The position numbers and the translations under genes are program-made. The notes below the pieces were generated by a model. That model was not told the DNA's origin and made no database searches. It saw nothing but the letters and a program-made list of their open reading frames with translations. From Corynebacterium falsenii (GTDB lineage Bacteria > Actinomycetota > Actinomycetes > Mycobacteriales > Mycobacteriaceae), in contig NZ_CP083646.1 in NCBI RefSeq assembly GCF_020099275.1, forward strand, positions 186,001 to 250,000: 64,000 nucleotides of DNA. Direction: 5' to 3'. Position 1 is the first letter of the stretch. Each line of letters begins with the position of its first letter. This document shows, one piece after another, positions 9,416 to 62,730 of this stretch.

Positions 9416-10168
9416 CTACCCCAGCAGCTCCGCCAAGTCCTGAACCACCACGTCCGCGCCGTGGTCGAGCAACGCTTGCTTGCCCGCCCCGCGATCCACG
9501 CCGATGACAAGGCCGAAGTGTCCGGCGCGTCCACTGGCGACACCGCTGGTGGCATCTTCCAGCACCACGGCCTTGTCCACTGGCACGCCCAGCTTCTTCG
9601 CACCGTACTCGTACGTATCGGGGGCGGGTTTTCCGGGAAGCTTTTCCTCCGACGCCACCACGCCGTCCACAATGACCTCAAAACGATCGAGGAGTCCCGC
9701 CGCCTCAAGGACCTGCCGGGCGTTCTTGGAGGATGAGACGATGGCGATGTGGGGCACATGCTCGCCGTCAGCGCCGCGGTCACGGATCGCATCGAGCAGC
9801 TGCACCGATCCTTCGTAAGCGTCCACTCCTTCGGCCACCAGGGCAAGGAAGTCCTCGTTTTTCCGCGTGCCCAATCCATGGACGGTGTCCTCCGTAGCGG
9901 CGTCGGAGTCCGAACCAAGCGGGAGCGAAATGCCGCGAGAGTCGAGGAGAGCCTGGATGCCTTCATCCCTGCGGCGGCCGTCGAGGAAGTCGAAATAATC
10001 CTGTTCGGTGTAGGGGCGGGCGCCTCGGCTGTCGAGGAAGGCGCTGAACATGCGGGCCCATGCCTGGCGGTGGAGCTTCGCGGTGGGGGTGATGACGCCG
10101 TCGAGGTCGAAGAGGAGGGCCTCGTAGGAGTAGATGTCCACGGGCGTGCTGGGGGTGTCGTTGGTCAT
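9416..10168 (-). CDS. pgmB: Beta-phosphoglucomutase (HAD family)
   Basis: 250 residues. Converts beta-glucose 1-phosphate to glucose 6-phosphate through an aspartyl phosphate. Seen: catalytic pair D21 and D23 in LLFDLDGVIT, cap region with LHRQAWARMF and a DGRRRDEG segment, motif II IVSSSKN, the EEKLPGKPAPDTYEYGAKKLG stretch and the VLEDATSGV metal site. Directly upstream of the GH65 phosphorylase on the same strand, which supports beta-anomer specificity. A copy of the dispersed motif (CGACGCCACC at 9650-9659 with TTTTCCTC before it) lies within the gene. Confidence 0.9.
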   Translation of the reverse strand: MTNDTPSTPVDIYSYEALLFDLDGVITPTAKLHRQAWARMFSAFLDSRGARPYTEQDYFDFLDGRRRDEGIQALLDSRGISLPLGSDSDAATEDTVHGLGTRKNEDFLALVAEGVDAYEGSVQLLDAIRDRGADGEHVPHIAIVSSSKNARQVLEAAGLLDRFEVIVDGVVASEEKLPGKPAPDTYEYGAKKLGVPVDKAVVLEDATSGVASGRAGHFGLVIGVDRGAGKQALLDHGADVVVQDLAELLG

Positions 10169-10365
10169 CGGTGATTGTGTCCTAACGCGGTGGAGTGCGG
10201 GGCTGGTTGCGGTACGTCATTTCATCCTAATGATCTGGCTGGGATGTGCAGCGGCAGCGGCTGCGCGGGCGGTGGCGGCCAGCAGAGAACGCCTTAGTGT
10301 TTCCGGTTGGTAACAATCCAGCAAATCAATTGCGGTGCAGCGCAATGGGGTGATACATCTGAGAT

Positions 10366-11070
10366 ATGACGACACAATCGAGGACACAGCTGACTCATGA
10401 GGCTCCCCACGCACCACAGCGCCAGGGATTCTCGCGACGCCACCTCCGCCAGGCCGCTCTGGTTCCGCTGATGGTTGGTGGACTGTTCCTCGCCGCCTGC
10501 GACGGGGGCGCAGACGGCAGCAATATGGATCACAACGCCAACAAGGCCGAACCCAGCAACGCGAACGTGGAATCAACGGCGTCTGCCACCGCGAAGGATG
10601 CGAACGCTGCAACGGACTCTGCAGGTAGCGGCGCACAGCCCTCTGCCCCCGCGCCACATCCCACCGTGGGCAATGCCCCGGCAACCGCGGGCAACGCAGG
10701 AATGAGCGACGCTTCCCAGCCCGGCGGTGCGCCGCGCATGGAAGATCACCCCGCTGGGTTGCAGCCAGGCCAGGCCGTGGTCGCTCATGGGCAGGCCGCC
10801 ACAATGTGCCGAATGGGCAACGGGTTCGGCGTGGGCTTCATCGTGGCCGGGCAGGGAACTCCGTGCGGTGTCGCGGATGCCACCGCTGGCGCACTGTTCC
10901 ACGGCCATGCGCCGAGCGAGAACGTGCGGAGCTTCGTTCCCGTGACCGTCACCCTTCCCGCTGATACGCCGGGTGGGGCCGATTCCATGCGGTGCGAGGC
11001 TATCGCCGGAGATGGAATCCGCTGCGCTGGTGTGAACAACCCGGCCGAGCACACGGTGTACCTGTACTAG
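10366..11070 (+). CDS. Secreted lipoprotein, unknown function
   Basis: 234 residues. N-terminal export signal with twin arginine (SRRHLRQAALVPLMVGG) followed by a lipobox LFLAAC with the acylated cysteine at residue 45, so exported and lipid-anchored, possibly by Tat. Residues 46-120 are low-complexity (Asn, Ala, Ser, Pro). The folded part begins around residue 125 and contains three cysteines (TMCRMGNG, TPCGVAD, MRCEA and IRCAG, the pairs likely disulfides). I do not recognise a family. Stands alone on the plus strand between minus-strand genes. Confidence 0.7.
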   Translation: MTTQSRTQLTHEAPHAPQRQGFSRRHLRQAALVPLMVGGLFLAACDGGADGSNMDHNANKAEPSNANVESTASATAKDANAATDSAGSGAQPSAPAPHPTVGNAPATAGNAGMSDASQPGGAPRMEDHPAGLQPGQAVVAHGQAATMCRMGNGFGVGFIVAGQGTPCGVADATAGALFHGHAPSENVRSFVPVTVTLPADTPGGADSMRCEAIAGDGIRCAGVNNPAEHTVYLY

Positions 11071-11073
11071 GCA

Positions 11074-11095
11074 CCCGGCACCCGCGGTAGCCGGG
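11074..11095. terminator. Possible hairpin between convergent genes
   Basis: CCCGGC (11074-11079) pairs with GCCGGG (11090-11095) across a 10-base loop in the 39-base gap between the convergent lipoprotein and OYE genes. No T tract follows on either strand, so function as a terminator is uncertain. Confidence 0.3.
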
Positions 11096-11109
11096 GCTGG
11101 GGTCAGCGC

Positions 11110-12228: not shown

Positions 12229-12335
12229 GGCAGCCAATCCTATTCCTGTTGCTGCCGTCCTCGCCACGCCCCGGCCGCCCATGCGCGTTCGCTGAGGACG
12301 ATGCCGGGGCTCAGGGGTAGAACAACGCTATCGCG

Positions 12336-14558: not shown

Positions 14559-14609
14559 GGTGACTCCTCATTCTCAGATTGCGTATGGAGTTTCTACTAT
14601 CCAAAGATA

Positions 14610-14660: not shown

Positions 14661-14850
14661 CACCCCCACCCCTGGGGAATCCCAAAGATCTGCGGACACG
14701 TTTCCTTGTTCCTACTCCACAAGCCGCGCTGTGGTGCATTGTCCTATAAACCCAGTTAGAGACGTAGATCACGCGGGCTGGTGGCGTCGAACGAGAAAAA
14801 TTTCACGAGTGGGATCTTCACAAAGTTTACAAAAATGGGCTACACCCCCA
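14661..14850. promoter_or_regulatory. aceB/aceA intergenic operators (RamA- and RamB-like)
   Basis: C/G stretches of the RamA type occur at 14661-14679 (ACCCCC, ACCCC, TGGGGA in a row) and 14844-14850 (ACCCCCA). A RamB-like element TTCACAAAGTTTA (14817-14829) matches 10 of 13 positions of the reverse of the published RamB motif. The same gap carries an inverted copy of the dispersed motif (GGTGGCGTCG, 14780-14789, followed by AACGAGAAAAATTT). The assignments come from motif matching and synteny and are not proven. Confidence 0.4.
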
Positions 14851-16480: not shown

Positions 16481-16520
16481 AAATAGGGCGGCTCATGCAC
16501 ACGCATGAGCCGCCCTATTT
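16481..16520 (+). terminator. aceA terminator, perfect 17-bp stem
   Basis: AAATAGGGCGGCTCATG (16481-16497) is exactly complementary to 16504-16520 with a six-base loop; the 3' arm ends in ATTT. It starts 67 bases after the aceA stop. Stem symmetry would let it act in both directions. Confidence 0.8.
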
Positions 16521-16540
16521 CTGTGTCCTTCTAAAGCTTG

Positions 16541-16608
16541 CTGTGGCTTTCTGTGGCTTTCTGTGGCTTTCTGTGGCTTTCTGTGGCTTTCTGTGGCTTT
16601 CTGTGGCG
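16541..16608. repeat. Decamer tandem repeat (CTGTGGCTTT)n
   Basis: Six perfect contiguous copies of CTGTGGCTTT begin at 16541, 16551, 16561, 16571, 16581 and 16591, followed by a partial seventh (CTGTGGCG). It lies between two hairpins in the gap between convergent aceA and the mmpL gene. The period is not a multiple of three and it lies outside genes, so copy number can vary freely by replication slippage. Confidence 0.95.
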
Positions 16609-20447: not shown

Positions 20448-20475
20448 ATCGTCCGTCGCAGGTTTCTTGTTTTTT

Positions 20476-20485
20476 CGACGCCACC
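20476..20485 (+). repeat. Dispersed motif, clean example
   Basis: CGACGCCACC preceded by a run of six T residues, in the 42-base gap between ramB and the convergent membrane-protein gene. Other exact copies with a T- or pyrimidine-rich lead: plus strand 9650, 23139, 34766, 48969, 50894, 57606; minus strand 14780, 42847, 62679. One-mismatch copies: 45335 and 61419 (plus), 2096 and 49052 (minus). Positions are the first base of the ten-base core on the plus strand. Confidence 0.8.
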
Positions 20486-23030: not shown

Positions 23031-23259
23031 AGTGTCCAAGGATACGTGTTTCTGGCTGGTTTTTCTTCCCCCGTGGTAACTATTCGCTCTCCCCCGCGCG
23101 GGCGTTCCTCATTTATTGCGTTTATTGCGTTGTTATCTCGACGCCACCCCACGCCTCCCCAACCCTCACACCTCCGATCGGAGTTCCCAGAGGGAGAGCC
23201 GCTCGGGGCTGCGCGGTTCAGGTGGCGGGTGGCGAAGCGGACCATCTGAAGCGGACGAT

Positions 23260-26365: not shown

Positions 26366-27667
26366 ATGCGCGCGATGACCTACGCCACCGTATTCGTGGC
26401 CGCCGCCGGTTACCTGGTGATCTGGGTAGCCTCGAAGGCTTTGCCGAAGGCGGGCTACGAAGACTTCATGGTGTACTGGTCCATGTTCTTCGCGCTCACG
26501 GGCGTGCTCGATGGCCTCATGCAGGAGACCGCCCGCGCCGTCACGACCCGGCGCGAACTCGGCGGCCCGGCCGTTCCCCACACCCGCACCGCCGCGCCGT
26601 TCCGGATCAGCGCGATCGTCGCTGCGGTCATCGCCATCATCATGGCCGCCACCGGCCCGCTGTGGGTGGATCAGATCGTGCCGAGCATGCCGGGCTGGGG
26701 CGTCGGACTCATGGCCATTGGCCTGGCGAGTTACACCTTCCAGGCGGTGGTGTGCGGACTGCTCTCCGCAGCGAATGCGTGGGGTGTGTTCGCGTGGCTC
26801 ATCGCCATCGATTCCGGCGTGCGCCTCGTCCTCGCCGCCGTGGCGTGGGCGGTAGGCTGGCACGTCCTGGCCTTCCTTATCGTCACCGTCCTCGGTGCGC
26901 TCACATGGTTGTTCATCCTCCTGGTCAGCGGCCAGGCCCGCGAGCTGCTCCCCGAACGCGCGGACGTGGCTACCAACGCGTTTCTCAGCCGCGCTGGCAA
27001 GGCCATGATCGCCGCTGGCGCCAACGCCATTCTCATCACCGGCTTCACGGTGCTCCTGCGCTACACGTCGGCCTCGGATGTTCCGCCCGGTGCTCTCGCC
27101 GCCACCATCACCGCGGTCACGCTCACGCGTGCGCCCATCCTCGTTCCCCTGCAACGCTTCCAACCTGCGCTGATCGTGCACTTCACGAAGCATCGCAACC
27201 ACGTCCTCCGCGCCGCAGCCCTGCCGATTGGCGCGGTCGCGGGTGTGGCGGTTGTCGGTGGCCTGGCCGCATGGGCCATCGCCGCACCGCTCATGGGAAT
27301 CTTTTTCGACGCCGACCTCATCGCTCCCCCCGCAACCCTCGGGTTGCTCACGGTGGCCTCGGGTGCCACGGCCATCCTCATGATCAGCGGTTCCGCAGCG
27401 CTCGCTGCAGACCGGCACAATCTCTACACGACAGGGTGGCTGGTGGCCACAGCGGTGACCATCGGCATTCTTACCATCAACGCCTCCGCCGATACCCGCG
27501 CCATCCTGGCGCTGGGCATCGGGCCGCTGGTCGGCGCCGTCGTACAGCTCGGGCTCCTCTCGTTCCTGCCCACCCCGGATTATGCTGGCACTGGATCCGA
27601 CAGGTCCGACAGGCTCGATAGGCCCGACACCCCCGCAGACACCACGTCCTTCCCTGATAAGGTCTAG
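26366..27667 (+). CDS. Polysaccharide flippase-like membrane protein (Rv3630-like)
   Basis: 433 residues with about twelve hydrophobic segments and no large soluble domain, resembling the MATE/MOP exporters that flip lipid-linked sugars. M. tuberculosis Rv3630 holds the same position before the PpgS gene Rv3631 and the small membrane protein Rv3632, and I infer the same role here: moving the polyprenyl-phosphate-linked amino sugar across the membrane. The C-terminal tail (SDRSDRLDRPDTPADT) is polar and low-complexity. Followed after 11 bases by a GT2 gene. Confidence 0.75.
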   Translation: MRAMTYATVFVAAAGYLVIWVASKALPKAGYEDFMVYWSMFFALTGVLDGLMQETARAVTTRRELGGPAVPHTRTAAPFRISAIVAAVIAIIMAATGPLWVDQIVPSMPGWGVGLMAIGLASYTFQAVVCGLLSAANAWGVFAWLIAIDSGVRLVLAAVAWAVGWHVLAFLIVTVLGALTWLFILLVSGQARELLPERADVATNAFLSRAGKAMIAAGANAILITGFTVLLRYTSASDVPPGALAATITAVTLTRAPILVPLQRFQPALIVHFTKHRNHVLRAAALPIGAVAGVAVVGGLAAWAIAAPLMGIFFDADLIAPPATLGLLTVASGATAILMISGSAALAADRHNLYTTGWLVATAVTIGILTINASADTRAILALGIGPLVGAVVQLGLLSFLPTPDYAGTGSDRSDRLDRPDTPADTTSFPDKV

Positions 27668-34697: not shown

Positions 34698-34803
34698 ATA
34701 ATTTCTTCAGTACTTATGGTGGCGATGACCAGGAACCTTCGGCTCTGGTTAGTCTTTCTTTATTCCGACGCCACCACGGAGCCATTCGTAGACAGGCCAT
34801 ATC

Positions 34804-42198: not shown

Positions 42199-43422
42199 CT
42201 AGACAACGCCACAGCATTCCCGCAGGCGCCCGGCCATCGCGTCCAACGCTACCTCCGGCTTCACGTTATATCCCAGCACCTCGCGGCACTCACTGACCGC
42301 ATCGATGCACCGCACCAACGCCTCGCCGGAATTGCGGCGCGCCAACTCCCGAGACGTCGCAGCCATATCCGGGTGTTGGTAGCCACCGATCGGCGCCCCA
42401 TCGTCATCCACCGCGCCCACAGCCTGCATCATCGCATCCCGGTACAGACCCGCCACATCGATGAGCGCCAGATCCAGGGCATCGCGTGTTTGGCGGGTAC
42501 GGCGATTCTTCTGCTCCTTCTCCAGCTCCTTCATCTGGCCAGAAGCACCGCGCTGCGCCTTCGCCGCGCCGCGTCCCTTCGCGCCCACGCCCAGGCTGTT
42601 TTCCAGCTCCGCCTTTTCGCGCTGCTCATCGGCCTCAAGGGCACTCGCGGCCTCCTCCGTGGCCTTCTTCACCAGCTCGGAGGTGAACAGGAACAACCTG
42701 CCCGACTCGTACACCATCTGCGGAAGTTTCAGGGCAGTCGCTCGCTTGGCACGGGCACGCTCCTCCCGCGCCAGATGCCGCGCCCTGCCGATGTGTCCGC
42801 CGGAGACACTGGCGGCCCATTGAGCTTGTTCATCGGTGAGCCCTAGGGTGGCGTCGGACAAAAGAACATCCTTAACCGCAGCCACACCAGGAGTGGGCAC
42901 ATAGACGTGGCGGCACCGCGACCGCAGCGTGATCGAAATGTCCTGCGGATCGGTCGACGGCGCGCAGAGCAGGAACACCGTGCGCGGCGGCGGCTCCTCC
43001 ACCGACTTCAACAAGGCGTTCGCGGCACCGTCCGAAAGCCGGTCAGCGTCCTCGACAACGACCACACGCCAGCGCGCCACGGTCGGCATATTCGCAGCCT
43101 CCCGCACGACCTCGCGGATGTCATCGACAGCGAGGACCACACCCGACGTCGACACCCACAAAATATCCGGATGTGTGCCCGCGTCCGCCGAACGGCACTG
43201 CTCGCAACGACCGCACCCACCATGCGGGCACACCAACGCCGTGGCAAAAACCTTCGCGGCGATCGAGCGCCCCGAACCCGGCGGGCCCGTAAACAACCAC
43301 GAGTGCGTCATCGACTGCAGATCCGTCACCGCACGGCGCAACGGCACGCGCACGGCAGGCGACGTGATCCGCGCGAATACGCCCTCCGGCGCCGAAAGAT
43401 CCTGAGTCTCACTCACACCCAC
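42199..43422 (-). CDS. holB: DNA polymerase III delta-prime subunit
   Basis: 407 residues. Clamp-loader subunit. Seen: Walker A GPPGSGRS with the usual Lys replaced by Arg (delta-prime is not an ATPase), the zinc site CPHGGCGRCEQC, WRVVVVEDADRLSDGAANALLKSVEEPPPRTVFLL and the sensor 1-like TLRSRCRHV. The C-terminal half contains an Arg/Glu/Lys-rich helical insertion (about 270-310). Paired divergently with the adenylate cyclase, as Rv3644c with Rv3645. Contains an inverted copy of the dispersed motif at 42847-42856. Confidence 0.93.
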   Translation of the reverse strand: MGVSETQDLSAPEGVFARITSPAVRVPLRRAVTDLQSMTHSWLFTGPPGSGRSIAAKVFATALVCPHGGCGRCEQCRSADAGTHPDILWVSTSGVVLAVDDIREVVREAANMPTVARWRVVVVEDADRLSDGAANALLKSVEEPPPRTVFLLCAPSTDPQDISITLRSRCRHVYVPTPGVAAVKDVLLSDATLGLTDEQAQWAASVSGGHIGRARHLAREERARAKRATALKLPQMVYESGRLFLFTSELVKKATEEAASALEADEQREKAELENSLGVGAKGRGAAKAQRGASGQMKELEKEQKNRRTRQTRDALDLALIDVAGLYRDAMMQAVGAVDDDGAPIGGYQHPDMAATSRELARRNSGEALVRCIDAVSECREVLGYNVKPEVALDAMAGRLRECCGVV

Positions 43423-45260: not shown

Positions 45261-46022
45261 TTGGGGATTACACGTCTGACCAGCGGTGTTCTCGCTGCTC
45301 TATTGTCCGTTTGTTTGGTTGGTTGCTCTATATTCGACGCCAACACGCGGCCGCCAGCCACCACCAAACTTTCGGTATCCACAGCCAACGACTCACAGGC
45401 CGGAGCTGTGGATAACCCTGACAAACCGGTGGTGACGGACGACGGCCGTATGCTACAACCACAGGGGCACGAGGGAATCTGGTTCGAGACTGAGCCGGAC
45501 GACCCGTGGGGGAAATACGTTTGGCGGTCGCAGAAGTTTGTGGGGGATCCGTTGGAATTGCCAGTGCTGGGGGAAAGCGCGGAGTTCGGCGCGGGCTTGA
45601 AGGGCCTGCCCGATTACTGTGCGCCAGAGGTCGAACGCAGGCTGGCCTCCATCGATCTTGTAGCTGAGAGCACTCAGGAGGGATTGGGAAGGAGAATGTG
45701 CGTCTTCACCCATACCCCTGAAGACATAGGTAAGGACAACTACTTCAGCTATGCCGTTTGGTACTCCAATTCTTGGCCACTGCATTCGCCCGACAAGGTG
45801 ATTTCCGAAATAGAGAATTTTGGCATTCCAGAAGTCTTTTCGATTCCCGGCACAGGTCTTCCGCGGGACTGCGTAGCGATGATCAAAAGTAAAGGTACGC
45901 CGGTTATTTACGCATCTCAGATCGAAGCAACGATGGAGCCAGAGCTGCGAACCGCTTGCTTGCGTGCAGCCTACTCACGACAAGTATTTGTAAACATAAC
46001 AGGAAATTCGGGGGAAAAATGA
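45261..46022 (+). CDS. Lipoprotein, unknown function
   Basis: 253 residues from a TTG start at 45261, chosen because AAGGGGG lies 5 bases upstream and the signal peptide then begins properly (LGITRLTSGVLAALLSV). Lipobox CLVGCS with acylated Cys around residue 25. Mature part: flexible Thr/Ser/Asp stretch, then a domain with GHEGIWFETEPDDPWGKYVW and four cysteines (DYCAPE, RMCVFT, RDCVAM, TACLRA), likely two disulfides. No family recognised. Overlaps the next gene by ATGA; the pair appears to be a unit. The 3' half is more AT-rich than its surroundings. Confidence 0.65.
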   Translation: MGITRLTSGVLAALLSVCLVGCSIFDANTRPPATTKLSVSTANDSQAGAVDNPDKPVVTDDGRMLQPQGHEGIWFETEPDDPWGKYVWRSQKFVGDPLELPVLGESAEFGAGLKGLPDYCAPEVERRLASIDLVAESTQEGLGRRMCVFTHTPEDIGKDNYFSYAVWYSNSWPLHSPDKVISEIENFGIPEVFSIPGTGLPRDCVAMIKSKGTPVIYASQIEATMEPELRTACLRAAYSRQVFVNITGNSGEK

Positions 46023-48932: not shown

Positions 48933-48992
48933 GGGTGTTCTCTTTTCCGTGTGTAGTTTTCTTCTTCTCGACGCCACCACGCGCCCACGCCC

Positions 48993-49934
48993 CTACCCCT
49001 CCCCAGGGTCTGGCGCGTGAGGTCCTTCGCGGACGGCGGCGAGGGGAAGGTTGTGGCGTCGAGCAAAAACCTCCCACTCCGAGGCGGTTTTGGTGGCAAG
49101 TATGCGCTGGAATTCTTCCCGGTCGCCGGAGATGCCGAGGAGCTCGAGGCCGTCGGCGAGGAAGTGGGGCTCCAGCAGGGCCACGGCCACCCAGCCTTCG
49201 CGGGCGGGGTACAGGCCGTACTGCGGGATGCCGCCGCCGAGGAGTCCATCGTTGCTGGTCAGGCCGTGCCGCGCGGGGCCGCCGAAGTGCTCGGCCATGT
49301 CGGCGAGAGCGACTTCGCGGTAGCTGCCGGAACCGGTGTGGGTGCGGTCCAGGAGCGCGGCGAGGCCCTCGGACACCGCGCGCTCCGAACCGGCCATGTC
49401 CGCGACGGGGATGCGGGGCATGTGCGGTGGGTCGAGGGTGCCCGCGTGGGCCTGGTACGTGAGGTCGTGGCCGGCCATCGCGGCGCGGTCGCCGGAGTGG
49501 CCGACGATGGCAACCTGGCTGAGCTGCGGAAAATCGGCGTGGAGTTGCTCCCAGCCAAGGCCGAGGCGTTCGAGCGCGGCGGGTCGGTGAGAGGTCAGCA
49601 GCAGGTCGGCCTGGGCGAGGAGGTCGCGCAGTTCCGCGGCCCCGTCCTCTGATTTGAGGTCGATAGTGCAGACGTGCTGACCTGCGATGAGCTCGCCGTA
49701 GTAGGCGCGGCAGTAATGCTCCATCAGGTCGCCGCTGGGTGGCTCGACCTTGGTGACGTGCATGCCGAGCTCGGCGAACCGGCGCGCGGCGAGGGGGCCT
49801 GGCAGGTTCGTGGCGATGCTGACCACGCGGTGTGGGGTGACGTGCGCACTAGGCGCGTCTATGTACGCGGTCGCGGGCGGAACCGCGGGCACGCTGAGGG
49901 CTTCCGAATCGGACGACACTGCCTTTGTCTCCAC
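48993..49934 (-). CDS. Class III CoA-transferase (CaiB/BaiF), short
   Basis: 313 residues. Seen: VVSIATNLPGPLAARRFAELGMHVTKVEPPSGD, TIDLKSEDGAAELRDLLAQADLLLTSHRPAALERLGLGW and a C-terminal GWVAVALLEPHFLADGLELLG region, as in formyl-CoA transferase and alpha-methylacyl-CoA racemase. Usual length is 360-400, so the C-terminal helix region is reduced; the truncated-looking end overlaps an inverted near-copy of the dispersed motif (49052-49061). The catalytic Asp expected after the N-terminal domain is not obvious to me. GTG start. Likely forms a CoA ester for the dehydrogenase downstream. Confidence 0.75.
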   Translation of the reverse strand: METKAVSSDSEALSVPAVPPATAYIDAPSAHVTPHRVVSIATNLPGPLAARRFAELGMHVTKVEPPSGDLMEHYCRAYYGELIAGQHVCTIDLKSEDGAAELRDLLAQADLLLTSHRPAALERLGLGWEQLHADFPQLSQVAIVGHSGDRAAMAGHDLTYQAHAGTLDPPHMPRIPVADMAGSERAVSEGLAALLDRTHTGSGSYREVALADMAEHFGGPARHGLTSNDGLLGGGIPQYGLYPAREGWVAVALLEPHFLADGLELLGISGDREEFQRILATKTASEWEVFARRHNLPLAAVREGPHAPDPGEG

Positions 49935-50114: not shown

Positions 50115-51062
50115 TTAGTTCTGCTCCTTCATCTTCTTCTCCGTGTCCTGGAGCACCTCATTGAGCTCGGGACCACTCATGCGCACCGGGACCGCAGTGC
50201 CGTTTGTTTCCTCAGCCAAGCCCTTCTGCACCGGCTCACTGTGCCACACCTCAACCAGCTTCTGCAGCTTCGGGTCATCCTTGCGATCTTCGGTCGTCAC
50301 GAAGCCATTGATGTATGGCTTAGACTCCGGCGAGTTTGGATCATCGTGGAAAATCACGGACTTGGGGTCGATCCCCGCGCGGGTCAGGAACGTGTTGTTA
50401 ATGACCGCGGGCTTACCGTCGAGGTAAGACATAGACGTCTGAGCAGCATCAACCGGAACAACCTTGACCTTGGACGCTGACTCATCAATGTCTGCAGGGG
50501 TAGGCACCAAAATGTTGTTGTCCTTCAGCTTAAGCAGGCCAGCCTGAGACAGAACGTGAATCGCTCGACCCTGGTTGGTCACATCATTAGGGATCGCCAC
50601 TTCACCAGCCTTGGCGACCGAATCTAGGTCATTGCGCCCCTTGTAGTACACACCGAGGGTGTAGATCTGGGTAGCGCCGATGGGCACGAGGTTCGACCCA
50701 CTGCCGGTGTTTTGCTGCGCGAGAAACAGCATGTGCTGGAAATTGTTTACGTCGATAGAGCCATCCAGCAACGCCTGGTTAGGCGTGTTGTAGTCGCTGA
50801 AGCTCACGACCTCCACGGGGAAATCAAGCTTCTTTACTTCTTCCTTGAATGCTTCCCACTGCTTCTGTTCTGGCTCGGTTGCACCAATTTTTACGACGCC
50901 ACCATCATCACTCCCCTGCCCACATGCCGCGATGGAGAGTCCCGTCGCCGCTACCATCGCGGCCGCCAGCACCTTCTTGCGACCGTTGGCACGTGTGCCG
51001 GAGGCTGGCTTTGTAGCAGATGAGTCGTGAGTTGCCGAGTGGCGTCCGAAAAAGCGCTTCAC
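50115..51062 (-). CDS. metQ: Methionine ABC transporter substrate-binding lipoprotein
   Basis: 315 residues from GTG 51062, which has GGGAGA 7 bases before it; codons further upstream belong to the operator region. Signal peptide with lipobox SIAAC, then the NlpA/MetQ fold: VVKIGATEPEQKQWEAFKEE, NQALLDGSIDVNNFQHMLFL, GEVAIPNDVTNQGRAIHVLSQAGLL, KPAVINNTFLTRAGID and VEVWHSEPVQKGLAEE. Binds methionine outside the membrane for MetNI import. metN and metI are not adjacent, so it is an orphan or the rest is elsewhere. McbR-like operators upstream suggest repression when sulfur metabolites are ample. Confidence 0.9.
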   Translation of the reverse strand: MKRFFGRHSATHDSSATKPASGTRANGRKKVLAAAMVAATGLSIAACGQGSDDGGVVKIGATEPEQKQWEAFKEEVKKLDFPVEVVSFSDYNTPNQALLDGSIDVNNFQHMLFLAQQNTGSGSNLVPIGATQIYTLGVYYKGRNDLDSVAKAGEVAIPNDVTNQGRAIHVLSQAGLLKLKDNNILVPTPADIDESASKVKVVPVDAAQTSMSYLDGKPAVINNTFLTRAGIDPKSVIFHDDPNSPESKPYINGFVTTEDRKDDPKLQKLVEVWHSEPVQKGLAEETNGTAVPVRMSGPELNEVLQDTEKKMKEQN

Positions 51063-55254: not shown

Positions 55255-57630
55255 ATGACTCAATCCAGCTTCGGCCAGGAAATTCTGGACCAGATCACCG
55301 GCTTCTTCCCGCGGTCCACCCTGACCCACATCCGGCACGTCCCCGCACAGTCCAGCACCCCTGTGAGCTGGCCTGATTGGGCAGATGCCGACCTGCTGGC
55401 TTACCTCGCCGACCGTGGAATAACACAGCCGTGGTCGCATCAGGCCGAGACGGCGGAGCGTGCGTGGTCGGGTGGAGATGTGATTTGTGCGACCGGAACG
55501 GCGTCGGGAAAAAGTTTGGGCTATCAGCTGCCCATCCTGAGCCACTTGGCCGCCAACTCGACGGCGACTGCCCTCTACATCAGCCCCACGAAAGCGCTCG
55601 CGCAGGACCAGAAAGCCAGCCTGGCGGCGATGTGTTCGGGAGCGGCGAGTCTGGCCGACGTGCTCGTGGCCAGCTACGACGGCGACACCCCACCCGAGGC
55701 GCGCCGCACGATCCGCGAGAGCGCGCGGATTGTCATCACCAACCCCGACATGCTGCACGCCAGCATCCTAGGCAACCCCGGCGCGTGGACACGGCTGCTG
55801 AAAACCCTGCGCTACCTAGTCATTGACGAATGCCACGTGTACCGCGGCGTGTTCGGCGCGCACGTGTCGATGGTGCTGCGCAGGCTGCTGCGGCTGGCGA
55901 GCAACGACGTCACCGTGATCATGGCCAGCGCCACCAGCGTGGATCCGGCCGCCCACGCGCGGCGTCTCACCGGGCGCACGGACATCCTGGCCGTCACCGA
56001 CGACGGCGCCCCGACCGGCCAGCGCACCATCGCGCTTTGGGAGCCGGGATTCCTGCCCGATACGCAGGGTGAACACGATGCGCCAGTGCGCCGCGCGGCG
56101 AACAGCGAGGCGGCGGACATCATGGGGCACATCATCGCCACGGGTGCGCGGACGCTCACGTTCGTGCGCTCCCGGCGCGGCGCGGAGATGGTGGCGATCA
56201 ACGCGGCGGAAAAGCTGGCGCAACTAGGGCGCAGCCAGGACGCGGTGCGGGTGGCGGCCTACCGCGCGGGGTACACGCCGGAGGACCGCCGGGAGCTGGA
56301 GCGGCGACTGGACAACGGCGAGCTACTGGGCGTGGCTGCGACGAATGCACTGGAGCTCGGCATTGACGTCGGCGGTCTTGATGCTGTGGTGACCAGCGGT
56401 TTCCCGGGCACGATCGCGAGCTTCCGGCAGCAGGCGGGGCGCGCGGGTCGGCGCGGGCAGGGTGCTGTGGTGGTGCTCGTCGGCGCGGATGATCCGATGG
56501 ATACGTACCTGGTGCACCACCCGGAAGCGCTGCTGGATCGGCCGGTGGAGAATACGGTGTTCGACCCTACGAATCCCTATGTGCTGGCGGATCACCTGCT
56601 GTGCGCGGCGGCGGAGAAGCCGCTGACGGACGCGGAGATCGCGGCGTGGGCTGGCGGCGCAACGGACACGGCAGACGCGGAGGGCGCTACCGATGCCGCC
56701 GCGAATGTGCAGCGTGTGGTGGATTATTTGCTTCGCCGCGGCGATCTCAAGCGTCGGCCCCGCGGCATCTTCGCGGATCTGCGCCGCGCCAAGGAGGTCC
56801 ACGGGCAGGTTGCGCTGCGCGGTGGCGCGGCGGAGCACGTGGCGATCGTGGAGCAGGAAACCGGCCGCATGCTGGGCACTGTCGATGCCACGCGCGCTAC
56901 GTCCGACGTCCACACGGGCGCCGTGTACGTGCACCAGGGCGAAACGTTCATCGTGGACGAGCTCAACCTCGCCGACAACGTGGCCTGGGTTCACCAGGCC
57001 TATCCGGAATACTCCACCAGCGCGGTGCGCACCACGGACATTGAGCTTTTGCGCACCCGCCAGACCGTCAAGATCACGGATGGCGTGTGGCTCGCGGATG
57101 TCGACGTGCGCGTGAGCCACCAGGTCACGGGCTACCGCAAGCGCCTGCCCAGTGGCGAGATCTTGGAGACTGTCCCCCTCGACGTGCCGCCTGATGAGCT
57201 GCGCACCCGCGCCGTGGCGTACACGGTGGAACCGGATGTGCTGCTTGACCTGGGCTTGCCGGAGCCCACGTGGCCGGGCTCGCTACACGCTGCGGAGCAT
57301 GCCGCCATCGGTTTGTTGCCGCTGCTGGCCACGTGCGATCGGTGGGACATCGGTGGCGTGTCCACCGTGGAGCACCCGGACACGGGCCTGCCGACCGTGT
57401 TCGTCTACGACGGCTACGCCGGCGGCGCGGGCTTTTCCGAGCAAGGTTTCGCGCGCTTCGCCGAGTGGATGCGCGCCACCGCGGACGCCGTGGGGTCGTG
57501 CGGCTGCGATTCCGGCTGCCCTTCCTGCGTGCAGTCCCCGAAGTGCGGCAACGGCAACGATCCTCTCTTCAAAACGGGTGCGCTGGAATTGCTCTCCTTT
57601 TTGTCCGACGCCACCTCCGGCGATTCTTAA
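55255..57630 (+). CDS. DECH-box helicase with DUF1998/MZB domain
   Basis: 791 residues, superfamily 2 helicase of the Lhr/YprA type. Seen: Walker A CATGTASGKSLGYQLP, TALYISPTKALAQDQ, VIITNPDMLHASIL, Walker B VIDECHVYRGVFG, SATSVDP, then helicase domain 2 (TNALELGIDVGGLDAVV, GRAGRRGQGAV) and a C-terminal four-cysteine zinc module (SCGCDSGCPSCVQSPKCGNG). MrfA-like enzymes of this class act in mitomycin-type DNA damage repair. In actinobacteria it marks the start of the Tad neighbourhood (as Rv3649). The dispersed motif (57606-57615) overlaps its last codons. Confidence 0.92.
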   Translation: MTQSSFGQEILDQITGFFPRSTLTHIRHVPAQSSTPVSWPDWADADLLAYLADRGITQPWSHQAETAERAWSGGDVICATGTASGKSLGYQLPILSHLAANSTATALYISPTKALAQDQKASLAAMCSGAASLADVLVASYDGDTPPEARRTIRESARIVITNPDMLHASILGNPGAWTRLLKTLRYLVIDECHVYRGVFGAHVSMVLRRLLRLASNDVTVIMASATSVDPAAHARRLTGRTDILAVTDDGAPTGQRTIALWEPGFLPDTQGEHDAPVRRAANSEAADIMGHIIATGARTLTFVRSRRGAEMVAINAAEKLAQLGRSQDAVRVAAYRAGYTPEDRRELERRLDNGELLGVAATNALELGIDVGGLDAVVTSGFPGTIASFRQQAGRAGRRGQGAVVVLVGADDPMDTYLVHHPEALLDRPVENTVFDPTNPYVLADHLLCAAAEKPLTDAEIAAWAGGATDTADAEGATDAAANVQRVVDYLLRRGDLKRRPRGIFADLRRAKEVHGQVALRGGAAEHVAIVEQETGRMLGTVDATRATSDVHTGAVYVHQGETFIVDELNLADNVAWVHQAYPEYSTSAVRTTDIELLRTRQTVKITDGVWLADVDVRVSHQVTGYRKRLPSGEILETVPLDVPPDELRTRAVAYTVEPDVLLDLGLPEPTWPGSLHAAEHAAIGLLPLLATCDRWDIGGVSTVEHPDTGLPTVFVYDGYAGGAGFSEQGFARFAEWMRATADAVGSCGCDSGCPSCVQSPKCGNGNDPLFKTGALELLSFLSDATSGDS

Positions 57631-57696
57631 AACCTGCCGCCATCGGGGTGCGGCGGGGCATTCACAATATGCAGACGGTTCACTAATGTTGTTTTC

Positions 57697-57897: not shown

Positions 57898-57955
57898 GAC
57901 TAAGTTGGCAAGGATCGACCAGTAGCGGGCTCTCACGGACCCTAGCTAGGGATGA

Positions 57956-58264
57956 TCAGCCTGCATCAACAGCAGTTTCGGCGGCTGCGGTGGCGCTGCG
58001 GGCAGAGGTTGCCACCGTAACGGTGACCCGGTCGCCCGCAACCTCGCAGCTCTCGAGCGTGGTGCCGTTTGCTTGGGCAAAAGTGCCCGCCGCCGCGCAG
58101 GGATCACCGTCCCCGGTAGCGTTGATGGCTGCTGCTGATAGGGCGGTGAGGTCTGCAGCGTTCACGGCTCGAACGTGCTCTCCCAACAGAGCCATGCTCG
58201 CGACGATGAACGCGCCAAGAGACAGAATCGCAAGAGTCGCACTCACTGCGTAGGTTGTGCTCAC
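57956..58264 (-). CDS. TadE-like pseudopilin (Rv3654c type)
   Basis: 102 residues. N-terminal hydrophobic helix (ATLAILSLGAFIVASMALLG) followed by HVRAVNAADLTALSAAAIN and a small domain with two cysteines (GDPCAAAG, LESCEV). This is the helicase-neighbourhood TadE-like family, last gene of the locus. It overlaps the preceding TadE gene by four bases (ATGA). A minor pilin or secreted component of the Tad system; the exact role is unknown. Confidence 0.8.
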   Translation of the reverse strand: MSTTYAVSATLAILSLGAFIVASMALLGEHVRAVNAADLTALSAAAINATGDGDPCAAAGTFAQANGTTLESCEVAGDRVTVTVATSARSATAAAETAVDAG

Positions 58265-58560
58265 GGTTCTGCCACCACCACAGCCTCAGCATGGACATCG
58301 AACAGTGGAGCCGGGGCTGTCACCCTGACGGTGACGGAGTTGACCCCAGCATGCACCGTGGGGCTGATGTCCACCACAGCATCGGGATCTTTGGCGTGAG
58401 CCAGCGCCTGGCCGTCGGCCCCCATCGCCTCAGCTCGGGCAACATCCCGAGCCAGTGACTGAGTAGCCGAAGCAGTGGCCATGGTGCCGAACCCCGCAAG
58501 GAGTCCTCCTACGACCACCGTTAAGGCGGACATGACGATAGCCCCTTCCACTGTGTTCAT
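58261..58560 (-). CDS. tadE: TadE-family pseudopilin
   Basis: 99 residues. Begins with the TadE-type motif (MNTVEGAIVMSALTVVVGGLLAGFG) with a Glu at position 5 of the mature-like segment, then a short soluble domain. Corresponds to Rv3655c. Ribosome binding site AAAGGAGAG. Minor pilin thought to help initiate or anchor the Flp fibre. Confidence 0.75.
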   Translation of the reverse strand: MNTVEGAIVMSALTVVVGGLLAGFGTMATASATQSLARDVARAEAMGADGQALAHAKDPDAVVDISPTVHAGVNSVTVRVTAPAPLFDVHAEAVVVAEP

Positions 58561-58644
58561 GATGTGCTCTCCTTTCTTGTTATCGCCGTGAACGCTCGAT
58601 CAGCAGTCTTTCCCAAAGACTGACGCGCAACCAGGCTGCGAGTG

Positions 58645-58977
58645 TTAGCCCTGCTTAAGGGCTCGCTCGAAAATCTGGGACAGTGCCTGCTCAACGGTGT
58701 CCGAGGTCACCACGGTGTAGAGCAACGCGCCCAGCGCGGCCGCCGCGACACATCCGAGGGCGTACTCGATGGTGCTCATTCCCTCTTCGTCATCCCAGTG
58801 CTTGCGGGCGGCACCAACGAAGGCATCCCACTGGCGTTCGATGAAGTTTCGGTCGCTGCACACGCACAGGTCTTGTGCGGGGCAGTCGAGTAATGCATCC
58901 TCGGTGTGTGCCGGCATCGGCTCCGCAACATCGATCGAGGGGGTGTTGGAAACAGCGGTCGTGGTCGTAGTGGTCAT
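58645..58977 (-). CDS. flp: Flp-type pilin (DUF4244)
   Basis: 110 residues. Start ATG at 58977 fits AAAGGACG. A long N-terminal leader (1-67, with DCPAQDLCVCSD cysteines) ends at EEGMSTIEYALG, the class IV pilin signal with the conserved Glu at position 5 of the mature pilin; then a single hydrophobic helix (CVAAAALGALLYTVVT) and a short tail, giving a mature pilin of about 45 residues. Leader is unusually long for Flp. Corresponds to Rv3656c. A perfect hairpin lies just before its ribosome binding site. Confidence 0.85.
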   Translation of the reverse strand: MTTTTTTAVSNTPSIDVAEPMPAHTEDALLDCPAQDLCVCSDRNFIERQWDAFVGAARKHWDDEEGMSTIEYALGCVAAAALGALLYTVVTSDTVEQALSQIFERALKQG

Positions 58978-58999
58978 GGTGATCGTCCTTTCGGATTGG

Positions 59000-59021
59000 G
59001 CATGCCCATCGGTGGGCATGC
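59000..59021 (-). promoter_or_regulatory. Perfect hairpin in the flp leader
   Basis: GCATGCCCA (59000-59008) and TGGGCATGC (59013-59021) form a nine-pair stem with a TCGG loop, ending about 10 bases before the flp Shine-Dalgarno and 23 bases before the ATG. No T tract follows, so not a simple terminator; an mRNA-stabilising or processing structure for high pilin output, or an operator, are possible. Confidence 0.5.
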
Positions 59022-59097
59022 GCGTGATGTGTTGTCGTTGAATTGTGTTGGTTCGTACAGCGCACGATCAGCCCCTCTAGGCCGCACATCGTGCACC

Positions 59098-60147
59098 TCA
59101 CAGCCCCGCCAGGCCGATGGCCAACGGCACCAGTCCCACGAGGACGAATGCGGGGAGGAAACACAAGGTCAGCGGGGCCGCCAGCGCGATGAGCACCCGC
59201 TCCGCCCCGGCGGTGGATTGATCAGCCGCGAGCCGTCTGAGACGCTCTGCTTGATCTCTCATCCCCTCTGCTAACGCAGCTCCCGACCTGGCATGATGCG
59301 CCGCCTGCCGCGCCACCGGCCCGTAAAACGGGTCGGAACTTACGGCATCCCAGGCAGCGCTATCCGCACCCAGGCGAAGCAGCGCTGTTTCCTTGTTATC
59401 CCCCACCCCTGTGGCCCACGCGAGAACTAGGGGCATCCCCGACGTCAATGCAGCCGCAACGACATCGAGATTGCGGGCGGCCGTCAAGGGGCCGTGGCCC
59501 GGCCCGGCGCGTCCGCCCACTCCGCCGAGAACAGTTATGGTGAGCCTCTCCGCCCACAATGCACCCGCGCAGATCAGTACCACTCCGGCTGTGCTGAGCA
59601 TCAAGCCCAGGCCGTTCGCCGTAAGAAACCGCAGCGTGCCGAACCCCATCGTTTGCCCCAGGGCAACCGCCCCGCACGGCAAAGCCAGCAGCACAACCAC
59701 TGTCAGCCGGGCTCCCGCCATCGCCGATTGCGATCGGGAGATGTGGGCCAGTTGGGCGTCGAGATCAACAACGTATGAACGCGTAAGGCCGGACAACCCC
59801 ACGCCGTGAGTGTGGCTGATCGACCAGAGCCGAAACAGGTGGCCGAGCTCGGGCACGCTTGGTCGCTCACTGCCCGCATCACCAACCACATCGGCACCCA
59901 TGCGCACCGCCGCCGAGCGGGTCCGCAAGGCTGTGCCAACCTGGGCATCACCCGCGACATCCGCCGCCCGCGCCAGAGCGGCCAGCGGCAGCGACCCCGC
60001 CGCAAGTTCCCGGGAGATGAAGTCCACGCTGTCACGCACATGCGCCACGCGGGTGCGGTCCCTGTGCATGTCCCGGGCATGCCGCACCACAACCGAGACG
60101 GTCAGCCCAACGATGGCCACCAACGCGCACCACACTGCGGCAATCAT
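59098..60147 (-). CDS. TadB-TadC fused inner-membrane platform protein
   Basis: 349 residues. First half: two N-terminal/flanking hydrophobic segments and a T2SSF-like cytosolic domain ending in the TadB signature (ALARAADVAG, LSGLTRSYVVDLDAQLAHI, then RLTVVVLLALPCGAVALGQTMG). Second half: two more helices and a TadC-like domain (AALAEGMRDQAERLRRLA, ERVLIALAAPLTLCFLPAF). In M. tuberculosis these are separate genes (Rv3658c, Rv3657c); here one open frame covers both with no internal stop. Overlaps tadA by ATGA. Anchors the ATPase to the pilus base. Confidence 0.75.
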   Translation of the reverse strand: MIAAVWCALVAIVGLTVSVVVRHARDMHRDRTRVAHVRDSVDFISRELAAGSLPLAALARAADVAGDAQVGTALRTRSAAVRMGADVVGDAGSERPSVPELGHLFRLWSISHTHGVGLSGLTRSYVVDLDAQLAHISRSQSAMAGARLTVVVLLALPCGAVALGQTMGFGTLRFLTANGLGLMLSTAGVVLICAGALWAERLTITVLGGVGGRAGPGHGPLTAARNLDVVAAALTSGMPLVLAWATGVGDNKETALLRLGADSAAWDAVSSDPFYGPVARQAAHHARSGAALAEGMRDQAERLRRLAADQSTAGAERVLIALAAPLTLCFLPAFVLVGLVPLAIGLAGL

Positions 60148-61376
60148 GCAGCACCCGCCTCACCCACGCCGGGAAGTCCGTGGCAAAACTCCTGCCACCC
60201 CGCTTTGGGGCGGCCGTTCCACACTTCGCGGATCGCCAGATCCTCACCACGCCGGTCGAGCGTGGCCAGGTGCGTAACGCGCCGCCCACCATCCGTCTTC
60301 ACCACATGAACGAGCACGTCAATCCCGTCAGCGGCCTGCCTCCTCAACGACGCCAACGGCATCCCGCCCATCGCCGCCAACGCCTCCAACCGCCCCGGTA
60401 CCGCATGCGGACTGTTCGCGTGGATCGTCCCGGCACTACCCGCGTGCCCGGTGTTGAGCGCGACGAGGAGGTCGGCCACCTCCGCGCCGCGGATCTCCCC
60501 GACCACGATGCGATCGGGGCGCATCCGCAGGCTCTGCCTCACCAGGTAGCGCATGGAAATCTCCCCGGCCCCCTCCGCGTTGCCCCGGCGCGTGCTCATG
60601 GCCACCACGTGCGGATGCTCGATGAGCAGCTCTGGGGTGTCCTCAATCACCACGGTTCGCTCGTCCGGCCCCACCTCAGCCATGAGTGCAGCCAGCAGCG
60701 TGGTCTTACCCGCGCCCGTCCCGCCGCTAATGACCACGTTGCGCCGACCGCGTACCACGCCCCGCAGCACGCTAGTCATCTGAGCGCTCATCATGCCGGT
60801 TTTCCGCAGGTCATCCAGGGTGGTGAAACTCTTGCTGAGCGCGCGCAGGCTCACGCACGCTGCCCCTGCCGCGGGAGGCGCCAGCACGGCGTGGACGCGC
60901 ACGGCCCCGGCGCACACGCCCGGCGGCAGGTTGATGAGCACGCCGTCTGCGCACGGTTGGGCGTCGTCGAGCCGCTGCCCGCATGCCATGGCCAGCCGCA
61001 CCGCAATGGACCTGGCCGCATCGGCGGCAATCGGCGCGCACGGGTAGCGGGTCATGCCGCTGCCGGCATCGCACCACACACTGCCATCGCCGTTGAGCAC
61101 CACGTCCGTCACACGCGGATCCATTAGCGGCTCGGCCAGCGCCCCCAGCCCGGACAGTTCCTGCTGGACGTGCACCACCGCATCAACCGTCGCCGCGCCT
61201 CGCAAACTTGCCGAGATCGCCTGCTCATCCGGCGCGACGATGCCCTGTTCAGCCAGCTCGTTGCGCACAAAATCAACCACCGCCGCCCGATCGTCGAGGT
61301 CCGGCAGCGCCCGCTCCCGTTCCGCCGCCAGCTGCTTACCGGCCCACGCGCCCAGCAACGCACGTTTCCCCCGCAT
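60144..61376 (-). CDS. tadA: Tad secretion ATPase
   Basis: 410 residues from ATG 61376, chosen for the strong AGGGGTGAG site; an extension of 17 codons upstream overlaps ssd. Seen: N-terminal all-beta region, DPRVTDVVLNGDGSVW, Walker A VISGGTGAGKTTLL, Asp box VVIEDTPELLI, Walker B-like RPDRIVVGEIRGAEVADLLVALNTGH with the His box AGSAGTIHANSP. Powers pilin assembly on the cytoplasmic face. Corresponds to Rv3659c. Confidence 0.93.
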   Translation of the reverse strand: MRGKRALLGAWAGKQLAAERERALPDLDDRAAVVDFVRNELAEQGIVAPDEQAISASLRGAATVDAVVHVQQELSGLGALAEPLMDPRVTDVVLNGDGSVWCDAGSGMTRYPCAPIAADAARSIAVRLAMACGQRLDDAQPCADGVLINLPPGVCAGAVRVHAVLAPPAAGAACVSLRALSKSFTTLDDLRKTGMMSAQMTSVLRGVVRGRRNVVISGGTGAGKTTLLAALMAEVGPDERTVVIEDTPELLIEHPHVVAMSTRRGNAEGAGEISMRYLVRQSLRMRPDRIVVGEIRGAEVADLLVALNTGHAGSAGTIHANSPHAVPGRLEALAAMGGMPLASLRRQAADGIDVLVHVVKTDGGRRVTHLATLDRRGEDLAIREVWNGRPKAGWQEFCHGLPGVGEAGAA

Positions 61377-61426
61377 GCTCACCCCTACCCTGTCTGTGCT
61401 GATCTCTTCTTTTCGTCTCGACGCCA

Positions 61427-62611
61427 CTAGCCCGCCCGCGCCACCGTATAGCTCGAAAGCACGTCAGTGATCAGCTCCGCACGGGCGTTATCGAAGGCCT
61501 TTATCACTGTGGCGGCCGCTGGATGCCCGTTGCGATGGGTGGAGGTGAGCCAGTGAGAGACTTGACCGGTCTCGACGGCTTGTAGGCAGTGTCGATCTTC
61601 GGGGATGCGCGCTGCGGGGCGGATCGCCAACATGGTTGCGGCCAGGTTTACCGTGGTGGTGCTACCGGGGATGTCCCGAACAACGACCACCGGCTCGGTA
61701 CGCCCATCTGCAGCGATCCGCGCGATGCGGTCACGCGCCGCCACGATGCTCGGCACGGTGAGGGGAACCATCATGACGTGCAGGTCGATCTCCCGGCCGA
61801 GCTCCCCCAGCTCGTCGGGAAGGCTGCGCCCGCAGTCCATCACCGTGGCTGGTCGCTGCGTGCCTCGCAGTACCGATGCAACGCGTCCACCCCAACCGGG
61901 CATGCTGCCAGAGGAATCTCGGGAGCTCGCCGTAACATCCCGGCTCGCCGCGAGGACGGGGATGCCGGCACCGTCCACGTCACAAAGCTGGGGAGTGTTC
62001 GCCGCGACGTCCTCCCAGGTGGCATCCTCCGGGAGGTCACCCAACCGCCATCCGGGCTGGTTTTCCAGCCCGTACACCACGTCCACGCCGGCGGAGTCTC
62101 GGTCGGCGTCGACTACCAACACCGGTGTTCCCTGGGCATGGAGATAGTGGGCGATGCTGGCGGCAAACAAGCTGGTTCCCGCGCCTCCCACGGCACCCGT
62201 GACGGCGATGAGTGGGCGATCATCAGCACCGATGCGTTCAGCGAGGGTGAGTGCACCTCCGTCATCTAGCGACGGGGTGCAGGTATCCACTCGGATCACG
62301 GTGAGGTTGGGGTGTTTGTCCCAGGGGGTTGCGTGGTCAGCGACGAGATACCCGATGGTCCGGCACGCTGATCCTGCTTCGGCGGGCGGTTCCATCTCGT
62401 CCGTCACCGGCACGAGAATGCGCCCGGTCACGGCAACAACCATGCGGACTTCTTGCATCCATGCCGGATCGGCCACGTTGACGAACACGGGCATGAGCGC
62501 CGATGTGGCCGCGGCCCCACGAGATGCGCGCGGCTTGTGTGAAGTGCGTGGGCTGTGTGAGGTGCGTGTGGAGCGTGAAGTGTGTGGAGAGCGCGAAGTC
62601 CGTCGTGTCAT
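61427..62611 (-). CDS. ssd: Septum-site-determining / CpaE-like protein
   Basis: 394 residues. N-terminal 33 residues are an Arg/Ser/Thr/His repeat (RTSRSPHTSRSTRTSHSPR). Residues 40-120 form a degenerate receiver-like domain; residues 130-380 a MinD/ParA-like ATPase fold with a deviant P-loop (AVTGAVGGAGTSLFAA, lacking the usual Lys at the end), VLVVDADRDSAGVDVV and VMMVPLTVPS. Corresponds to Rv3660c (Ssd), which affects septation, and to CpaE pilus-localisation proteins. First gene of the tad operon. Stop lies next to a near-copy of the dispersed motif (61419-61428). Confidence 0.87.
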   Translation of the reverse strand: MTRRTSRSPHTSRSTRTSHSPRTSHKPRASRGAAATSALMPVFVNVADPAWMQEVRMVVAVTGRILVPVTDEMEPPAEAGSACRTIGYLVADHATPWDKHPNLTVIRVDTCTPSLDDGGALTLAERIGADDRPLIAVTGAVGGAGTSLFAASIAHYLHAQGTPVLVVDADRDSAGVDVVYGLENQPGWRLGDLPEDATWEDVAANTPQLCDVDGAGIPVLAASRDVTASSRDSSGSMPGWGGRVASVLRGTQRPATVMDCGRSLPDELGELGREIDLHVMMVPLTVPSIVAARDRIARIAADGRTEPVVVVRDIPGSTTTVNLAATMLAIRPAARIPEDRHCLQAVETGQVSHWLTSTHRNGHPAAATVIKAFDNARAELITDVLSSYTVARAG

Positions 62612-62730
62612 GCCCCAGACTTTCCCAGCGGGCCGGGGAGACTAGCCAGCCCCGGCGTGCTGGTGTGTGGATAAGTGGGGTGGCGTCGAGAAAAAGAGGG
62701 AGCCACCCCTGTGGATAAGTAGCCAAAATT

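Follow-up and report, generated by a model that had tools for sequence, protein, structure and literature searches.

The motif and its copies in the window

We analysed a 64,000-nt stretch of the Corynebacterium falsenii chromosome, hereafter the window (G000:C1:186001-250000; single-contig chromosome of 2,677,377 bp), in which a Tad/Flp pilus locus with an adjoining helicase gene, holB and a histidine-kinase gene are interspersed with copies of a short motif, a T-rich lead followed by the core CGACGCCACC, that we consider here as a candidate DNA uptake signal. An earlier note, made from the letters of the window, had listed ten exact copies of CGACGCCACC and four near copies (45335, 61419, 49052(-) and 2096(-)). 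We recovered all of them, the exact copies at the same coordinates and on the same strands (Table 1), and found three further exact cores (10435+, 13689- and 30256+), which brings the number in the window to 13. The additional cores lack a T-rich lead, with 3, 2 and 3 T in their 9-nt leads; in the counts for C. falsenii, T-led designates at least four T among the nine bases 5' of the core. Independent gene calls agreed that six of the ten copies listed earlier are intergenic, whereas the preference for gaps drawn from this shrank to a weak, about twofold one, most copies being in genes. The six of ten reflects local fluctuation, because across 464 kb sampled from this chromosome only 12 of 64 exact cores are intergenic and 52 lie in genes, intergenic sequence making up 9.6% of the bases.

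Table 1. Motif copies and the pilus locus in the window
Feature	Coordinates	Strand	Context
Near copy CGACGCCACG	2096..2114	-	Intergenic
T-led exact CGACGCCACC	9641..9659	+	Inside coding sequence (CDS) 9416-10168(-)
T-led exact copy	14780..14798	-	Intergenic
T-led exact copy	20467..20485	+	Intergenic, between converging genes
T-led exact copy	23130..23148	+	Intergenic
T-led CGACGCCGAC	27298..27316	+	In coding gene
T-led exact copy	34757..34775	+	Intergenic
T-led exact copy	42847..42865	-	Inside DNA polymerase III delta' (holB) gene
Near copy CGACGCCAAC	45326..45344	+	Intergenic, 160 bp past histidine-kinase gene
T-led exact copy	48960..48978	+	Intergenic
Near copy CGACGCCACA	49052..49070	-	In CDS 48993-49934(-)
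T-led exact copy	50885..50903	+	Inside CDS 50115-51062(-), NlpA-type lipoprotein gene
T-led exact copy	57597..57615	+	Last codons of CDS 55255-57630(+), DEAH-box helicase beside Tad locus
Tad/Flp pilus locus	57956..62611	-	TadA ATPase, T2SSF protein, DUF4244, TadE-like Rv3654c family
Near copy CGACGCCACT	61410..61428	+	tadZ/tadA junction
T-led exact copy	62679..62697	-	Intergenic, upstream of Tad locus, between two TTATCCACA sites

Excess over chance and shape of the motif

In 100 dinucleotide shuffles of the window, the exact core appeared 0.48 times on average and never more than 3 times, so that none reached the 13 observed. For codon-controlled counts we used the 464-kb sample, which comprised the window and twenty systematic 20-kb stretches (410 called genes, 90% coding), and generated 100 shuffles in which the synonymous codons of each gene were permuted and intergenic sequence was shuffled by dinucleotide. 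The 64 exact cores seen there compare with 10.5 in the shuffles, so that the excess reported earlier stood, whereas the accompanying estimate of well under one ten-mer by chance proved optimistic once codons were preserved. T-led CGACGCCAC[C/A] occurred 56 times, 44 in genes and 12 between them, against 1.9 (maximum 6) in shuffled genes and 0 in shuffled intergenic sequence; the comparison with codon bias that the earlier note had proposed thus left the motif well above expectation. By contrast, cores with at most two T in the lead were present at chance level in genes (13 against 8.1 shuffled, maximum 15). Because T-poor cores are near chance and T-led cores are in excess, the unit is the lead together with the core.

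The 44 T-led coding copies showed no preference for gene strand, 21 lying on the same strand as the gene and 23 on the opposite one, and the intergenic share of the T-led copies (12 of 56) corresponds to an approximately twofold enrichment. Genome-wide, with the pattern read backwards as the control, TCGACGCCACC was present in 96 + 119 = 215 copies on the two strands, against 2 + 3 = 5 for the control, and YYYYYNYCGACGCCACC in 72 against 1. The profile of 56 [T/C]CGACGCCACC sites revealed T or C over approximately ten bases before the core with a T peak six to seven bases 5' of it, A as the commonest base directly after the core and C-rich sequence downstream. The commonest T-led single-base variant of the core in the sample was CGACGCCACA (12 of 22 with at least five T in nine).

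Dialects among close relatives

In a survey of 242 Corynebacterium genomes, YYYNNNYCGACGCCACM was abundant in seven only (G000, 190; G240, C. suicordis, 140; G010, 100; G180, 84; G093, C. dentalis, 81; G032, 74; G066, 58), the next genome holding 22. Some close relatives score low with this pattern because the bases adjoining GACGCC differ. An unbiased scan of the 6-mers that follow a T-rich stretch placed GACGCC at the top in 10 of 12 sets, the other two being G066 and G136; with 160 kb of sequence it came first in G066 too, and in G136 T-led GACGCC ranked fifth (20/218).

Dialect logos from 19-80 kb per genome around topA in eleven relatives revealed spellings particular to each lineage. In C. 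falsenii, C precedes GACGCC and ACC follows it; in C. suicordis and C. dentalis, mostly AAC follows; in G180 and G032, a free base follows and then mostly C. In strains ACRQK, ACRPH and HMSC08A12 (G204, G206 and G099), assigned to the C. jeikeium complex by nearness to C. jeikeium loci, T (67-79%) replaces the C before GACGCC. The spellings are thus T-tract + CGACGCCAC[C/A] in C. falsenii, T-tract + CGACGCCAAC in C. suicordis and C. dentalis, and T-tract + TGACGCC in the C. jeikeium complex; the dialect of Ca. C. gallistercoris (G111) rests on 4 sites and that of G066 on few. A topA protein tree of 30 genomes united all eleven T-led rows in one clade (100/99), within which G204+G206+G099 (100/100), G180+G032 (100/100), G093+G240 (100/99) and G010+G066 (97/86) grouped together, as did, weakly, G000+G111 (80/69). 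In this one gene tree, the lineage dialects follow phylogeny.

A genus-wide form of the motif

Codon-controlled discovery of 10-mers outside the T-led clade returned the core behind a different lead: CTTCTCGACG in G018 (32 against 4.3 shuffled), CTTATCGACG in G136 (14 against 1.4), CTTGTCGACG in G239 (10 against 1.1) and GCTTATCGAC in G250 (18 against 0.7). The genus form likewise exceeded codon-preserving shuffles in G018 (34 against 4.6 in 140 kb) and G250 (31 against 0.68 in 80 kb). Because the GACGCC core recurs with another lead across the genus, the window motif represents a genus-wide motif in the dialect of one clade, and the shared CGACGCC core, together with the intermediate G136, suggests that the T-led and genus forms share a common descent.

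Across the 242 genomes, CTTNYCGACGCC had a median count of 186.5, against a control median of 8, and a maximum of 963 (G227), with totals of 26,960 on the forward and 26,743 on the reverse strand. It reached at least 10 times its control in 164 genomes and stayed below 3 times in 44, some of which (G099, G204, G206) carry the T-led dialect instead. The extended form, GCTTN[T/C]CGACGCC then CCC, was defined from 77 sites in four genomes; among the 76 with full flanks, G precedes it in 89% and the next three positions are C at 59-61%. Fifty-nine of the 77 sites lie in genes, 29 on the same and 30 on the opposite strand, and 18 are intergenic (13% of bases).

Outside the genus, we counted CTTNYCGACGCC in 121 genomes that represent 49 other genera of the order, and all of them stayed below 10 times the control; they held 6-94 sites in genomes of 2.4-10.5 Mb, at most approximately 14 per Mb, and the lowest counts fell short of the control. 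A mild excess was present in G331 (42 against 5, about eight times, the highest) and in some other genomes of family f9, in counts uncorrected for codon use. Within Corynebacterium, CTTGTCGATG in G063 (L234-L237; 9 against 0.9 codon-shuffled) and CGGACGCC in G163 (L238-L241; 62 against 23), both weak leads, could each be a further dialect or an unrelated motif. In G014 (L228-L229), a word around CAGAACGACGATCGCGA is repeated in approximately seven copies in 40 kb and is distinct from the GACGCC motif.

Gain and loss at aligned sites

Twenty-nine GACGCC sites of the window have four or more T in the lead, and 14 of them have alignable orthologs. At the holB copy (42850(-)), GACGCC is present in 10 of 11 aligned relatives, all except G136, in an alignment that needs a two-base shift for three C. 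jeikeium-complex rows. At 27308, C. falsenii carries TTTTTCGACGCC and three C. jeikeium-complex genomes carry TTTTTTGACGCC (3 of 9 alignable relatives), and the other six relatives have other codons, by substitutions without gaps. GACGCC is shared by 4 of 11 relatives at 52550, by 4 of 9 at 55500 and by 2 of 2 at 29033, and occurs in 1 of 3 at the poorly aligned 9651. The alignable coding sites of the window region thus differ by substitution, not insertion. At the spot beside TTATCCACA, G000, G180, G032, G240 and G093 each hold a copy in the species' own spelling, and the shared flank suggests that these spots are orthologous.

The histidine-kinase gene that precedes one near copy (Table 1) carries a T-led CGACGCCACC copy close to its end in five loci of C. 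jeikeium or close to it (L010-L013, L027). The nearest named matches of the window kinase, at 87-89% identity, include C. jeikeium strains and Ca. C. gallistercoris.

Prophage regions and chromosomal distribution

A search for phage portal genes (PF04860) in 50 motif-rich genomes found seven with a portal, six of them over the cut-off. Prophage regions were taken as fixed intervals around the portal genes, with expectations from genome densities. Within ±10 kb of the seven portals there were 5 CTTNYCGACGCC sites against 28.5 expected (Poisson P 8e-8; the ±10 kb interval was picked after the positions had been seen), and the full 40-kb regions held 28 against 57, whereas six control stretches from five of the portal genomes held 19 against 23.5. 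The G018 portal scores under the family cut-off, and CTTNYCGACGCC sites do occur on its probable structural side; in G022 the co-directional gene block around the portal holds approximately four.

In C. falsenii, the sites are spread over the chromosome, their positions do not depart from uniform (Kolmogorov-Smirnov p 0.14) and they show no restriction to origin or terminus. That the origin stretch lacks T-led CGACGCCAC[C/A] was considered as a clue but dropped, as 4 of the 20 sample stretches do so, the origin stretch among them. That stretch (G000:C1:402001-422000, L092) contains dnaA, three parS-like sites and three TGTAATTACA palindromes, a pattern found nowhere else in the 464-kb sample.

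Pilus and competence genes

The Tad/Flp locus of the window is a candidate pilus for DNA uptake. In addition to the families in Table 1, it has TadE Rv3655c-type and CpaE/TadZ-like matches, both below curated cut-offs, and it adjoins the DEAH-box helicase of the 'helicase/secretion neighborhood'. ComEA and ComEC are encoded together at G000:C1:1.19 Mb (L139). The ComEC family is present in 241 of the 242 Corynebacterium genomes and the TadA family in 239, 232 of them over the curated cut-off. In Micrococcus luteus, according to PMC4322843, transformation needs ComEC and Flp pili belong to the transformation apparatus; the same source describes the combination of tad with comEA/EC as frequent in Actinobacteria.

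The motif copy on the upstream side of the Tad locus lies between two TTATCCACA sites resembling DnaA boxes (62666-62674 and 62710-62718), which raise the possibility that control of the pilus genes is linked to DnaA. The window also contains a 10-bp tandem repeat, TTTCTGTGGC, in nine copies (16518-16607), in the gap between a gene ending at 16413 and the gene 16663-18729(-), and an imperfect 24-bp tandem repeat (51544-51625) close to the 3' end of topA.

Weighing the explanations

An uptake signal accounts better than a Chi site, a nucleoid-protein site or a mobile element for the combination of motif excess, lack of gene-strand preference, dialects in step with the tree, change by substitution, scarcity around prophage portals and the presence of com and pilus genes. 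We therefore estimate, with a probability of roughly 0.68, that the motif serves Corynebacterium as a DNA uptake signal sequence, analogous to the DNA uptake sequence (DUS) and the uptake signal sequence (USS) of other bacteria. Among the roles that the earlier note had listed, the uptake signal fits best, and the miniature mobile element fails at the best-aligned coding sites, which are ungapped and differ by point substitutions only. Both an effect of the motif on DNA uptake and the identity of the protein that reads it are predicted from genome sequence. A receptor at the cell surface, with a minor Tad/Flp pilin or ComEA as the likeliest candidates, would bind motif-bearing double-stranded DNA, pilus retraction would pull that DNA through the mycolate layer and the wall, ComEC would pass one strand into the cell and RecA would recombine it. 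If motif-bearing DNA were taken up and recombined more often, biased replacement would build up copies on either strand, within genes as well as between them; if the specificity of the receptor drifted, the whole set of copies would follow and dialects would result.

Several observations weigh against an uptake signal. Among the literature matches listed we found no natural transformation of these species, and the density of approximately 80-320 sites per Mb is below the thousands of copies given for Neisseria and Pasteurellaceae in PMC3630211. Fifteen of the 29 window sites, including most intergenic ones, have no alignable ortholog, and at 33314 (ten relatives) and 31401 (eight) GACGCC is present in no relative. 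Prophage depletion is expected of any chromosome-adapted motif too. With dnaA at 415,033, beside parS sites, as the origin, 48 of the 72 strongest C. falsenii sites run against the replication fork and 24 with it (p 0.006), a bias that persists with the terminus placed 100 kb later (46/26, p 0.02). The motif-poor G063, G070, G071, G083, G084, G085, G157 and G163 keep ComEC and TadA, and among the 242 genomes these two families fail to separate motif-rich from motif-poor species, so that motif loss does not track com/tad loss; for G070 and G085, 80-kb samples yielded no replacement motif. As ComEC and TadA are near-universal, their presence does not explain the motif-poor species, which may take up DNA non-specifically, use another motif or have lost competence otherwise. 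Loss of com genes along with the motif is not strictly required, because uptake without sequence specificity exists (PMC12616744).

The near-uniform dispersal of copies on both strands could also be produced by a site for a chromosome-organising or nucleoid-associated protein whose specificity drifted between lineages, and the depletion near prophage portals would fit such chromosome-adapted sites; we nevertheless consider this unlikely, given that most copies lie within genes, in few of the possible codon frames, that positions are not restricted to terminus or origin, and that repeated shifts of specificity by a pleiotropic protein within one genus would be unusual. The orientation bias of the 72 strongest sites is what a Chi-like recombination hotspot regulating a helicase-nuclease of the AdnAB/RecBCD type would lead one to expect; the reverse complement of the motif is also G-rich, and Chi sites, too, number hundreds of chromosomal copies. 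Yet the bias is not significant by replication strand in the 56 sample sites (32/24, p 0.35) or in the G018 and G250 sites (36/29, p 0.46, with the origin assumed at position 0), and it is small for plus-strand TCGACGCCACC (51 in the left and 45 in the right arm, hand count), so that the evidence of polarity is weak but not nil. Moreover, the approximately 15-20 positions of the motif with its T-tract are long for Chi, and the dialect changes strongly inside one genus, which makes a Chi-like role quite unlikely.

Some other DNA-level mark of self, serving discrimination by a defence system, replication or segregation, would share the indifference to gene strand and the depletion near portals. 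KOPS- or matS-type signals are polar or limited to the terminus, whereas the sites here are chromosome-wide with weak or no polarity, and no known system with such a motif was among the literature matches listed; we see this as a long shot. Codon or protein-coding bias, or the remnants of small mobile elements, is hardly credible. One frame of GACGCCACC does read Asp-Ala-Thr, 15 of the 44 coding copies are oriented with the gene and use this frame, and T-poor cores occur at about the chance rate. The codon-preserving shuffles nevertheless speak against codon bias (56 T-led copies against 1.9), the excess surviving them in the 464-kb sample as well as in G018 and G250; the 23 coding copies antisense to genes and the intergenic copies count against it as well. 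Mobile remnants were rejected because the best-aligned coding sites show substitutions in ungapped orthologous alignments and no clean insertion against an empty site, the intergenic sites being mostly unalignable.

Comparison with known systems

A published statement (PMC12616744) limits uptake signals to Neisseriaceae and Pasteurellaceae. Like the Corynebacterium motif, the DUS of Neisseriaceae is a short motif with many copies in and between genes and with dialects that match the core-genome tree (PMC3630211), and inverted DUS pairs acting as terminators are described there for Neisseria. The Corynebacterium motif differs in being another sequence with far fewer copies, and in belonging to Actinobacteria, which have an outer layer of mycolates and, in place of the type IVa pilus of Neisseriaceae, a pilus of the Tad/Flp kind; the Neisseria receptor is ComP, whereas receptor and uptake in Corynebacterium are predicted from genomic data. 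The USS of Pasteurellaceae occurs in two variants, Hin and Apl (PMC3630211). Its core (AAGTGCGGT/ACAAGCGGT) differs from GACGCC, as do the order of T-tract and core and the phylum, and uptake would extend to Corynebacterium by analogy. A fixed core with adjoining T-rich elements is nonetheless a feature of the USS, like the Corynebacterium lead and core. Chi sites of RecBCD/AddAB resemble the motif in being abundant and dispersed over the chromosome, and a replication bias was present in one of three Corynebacterium site sets; that bias is inconsistent, however, and the motif is longer and bipartite, with dialects within the genus.

The Flp/Tad-dependent transformation of M. luteus provides the likeness of tad with comEA/comEC in Actinobacteria (PMC4322843), although a term search of that source gave no mention of an uptake sequence. 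Where PMC5217627 names Corynebacterium, it is just for CRISPR-related motif pairs in three genomes. Titles and abstract starts among the matches listed contained no uptake sequence of Corynebacterium or Actinobacteria, which does not settle its absence from print. On balance we favour, somewhat more guardedly than the uptake signal as such, a third uptake-sequence system that would have evolved independently and be the first beyond the Gram-negative families. In it, a receptor of the Tad/Flp pilus or ComEA would recognize a GACGCC-based self tag, and shifts of dialect (from CTTNTCGACGCC to T-tract CGACGCCACC, CGACGCCAAC and TGACGCC) would act as barriers to gene exchange between species. If so, a large genus of Actinobacteria, with skin commensals and opportunists among its members and not generally handled as competent, would transform in nature and recognize its kin, and the dialects would offer a ready means of identifying the receptor and of predicting between which species DNA is exchanged. 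An uptake-signal system would then have evolved again, with a different pilus.

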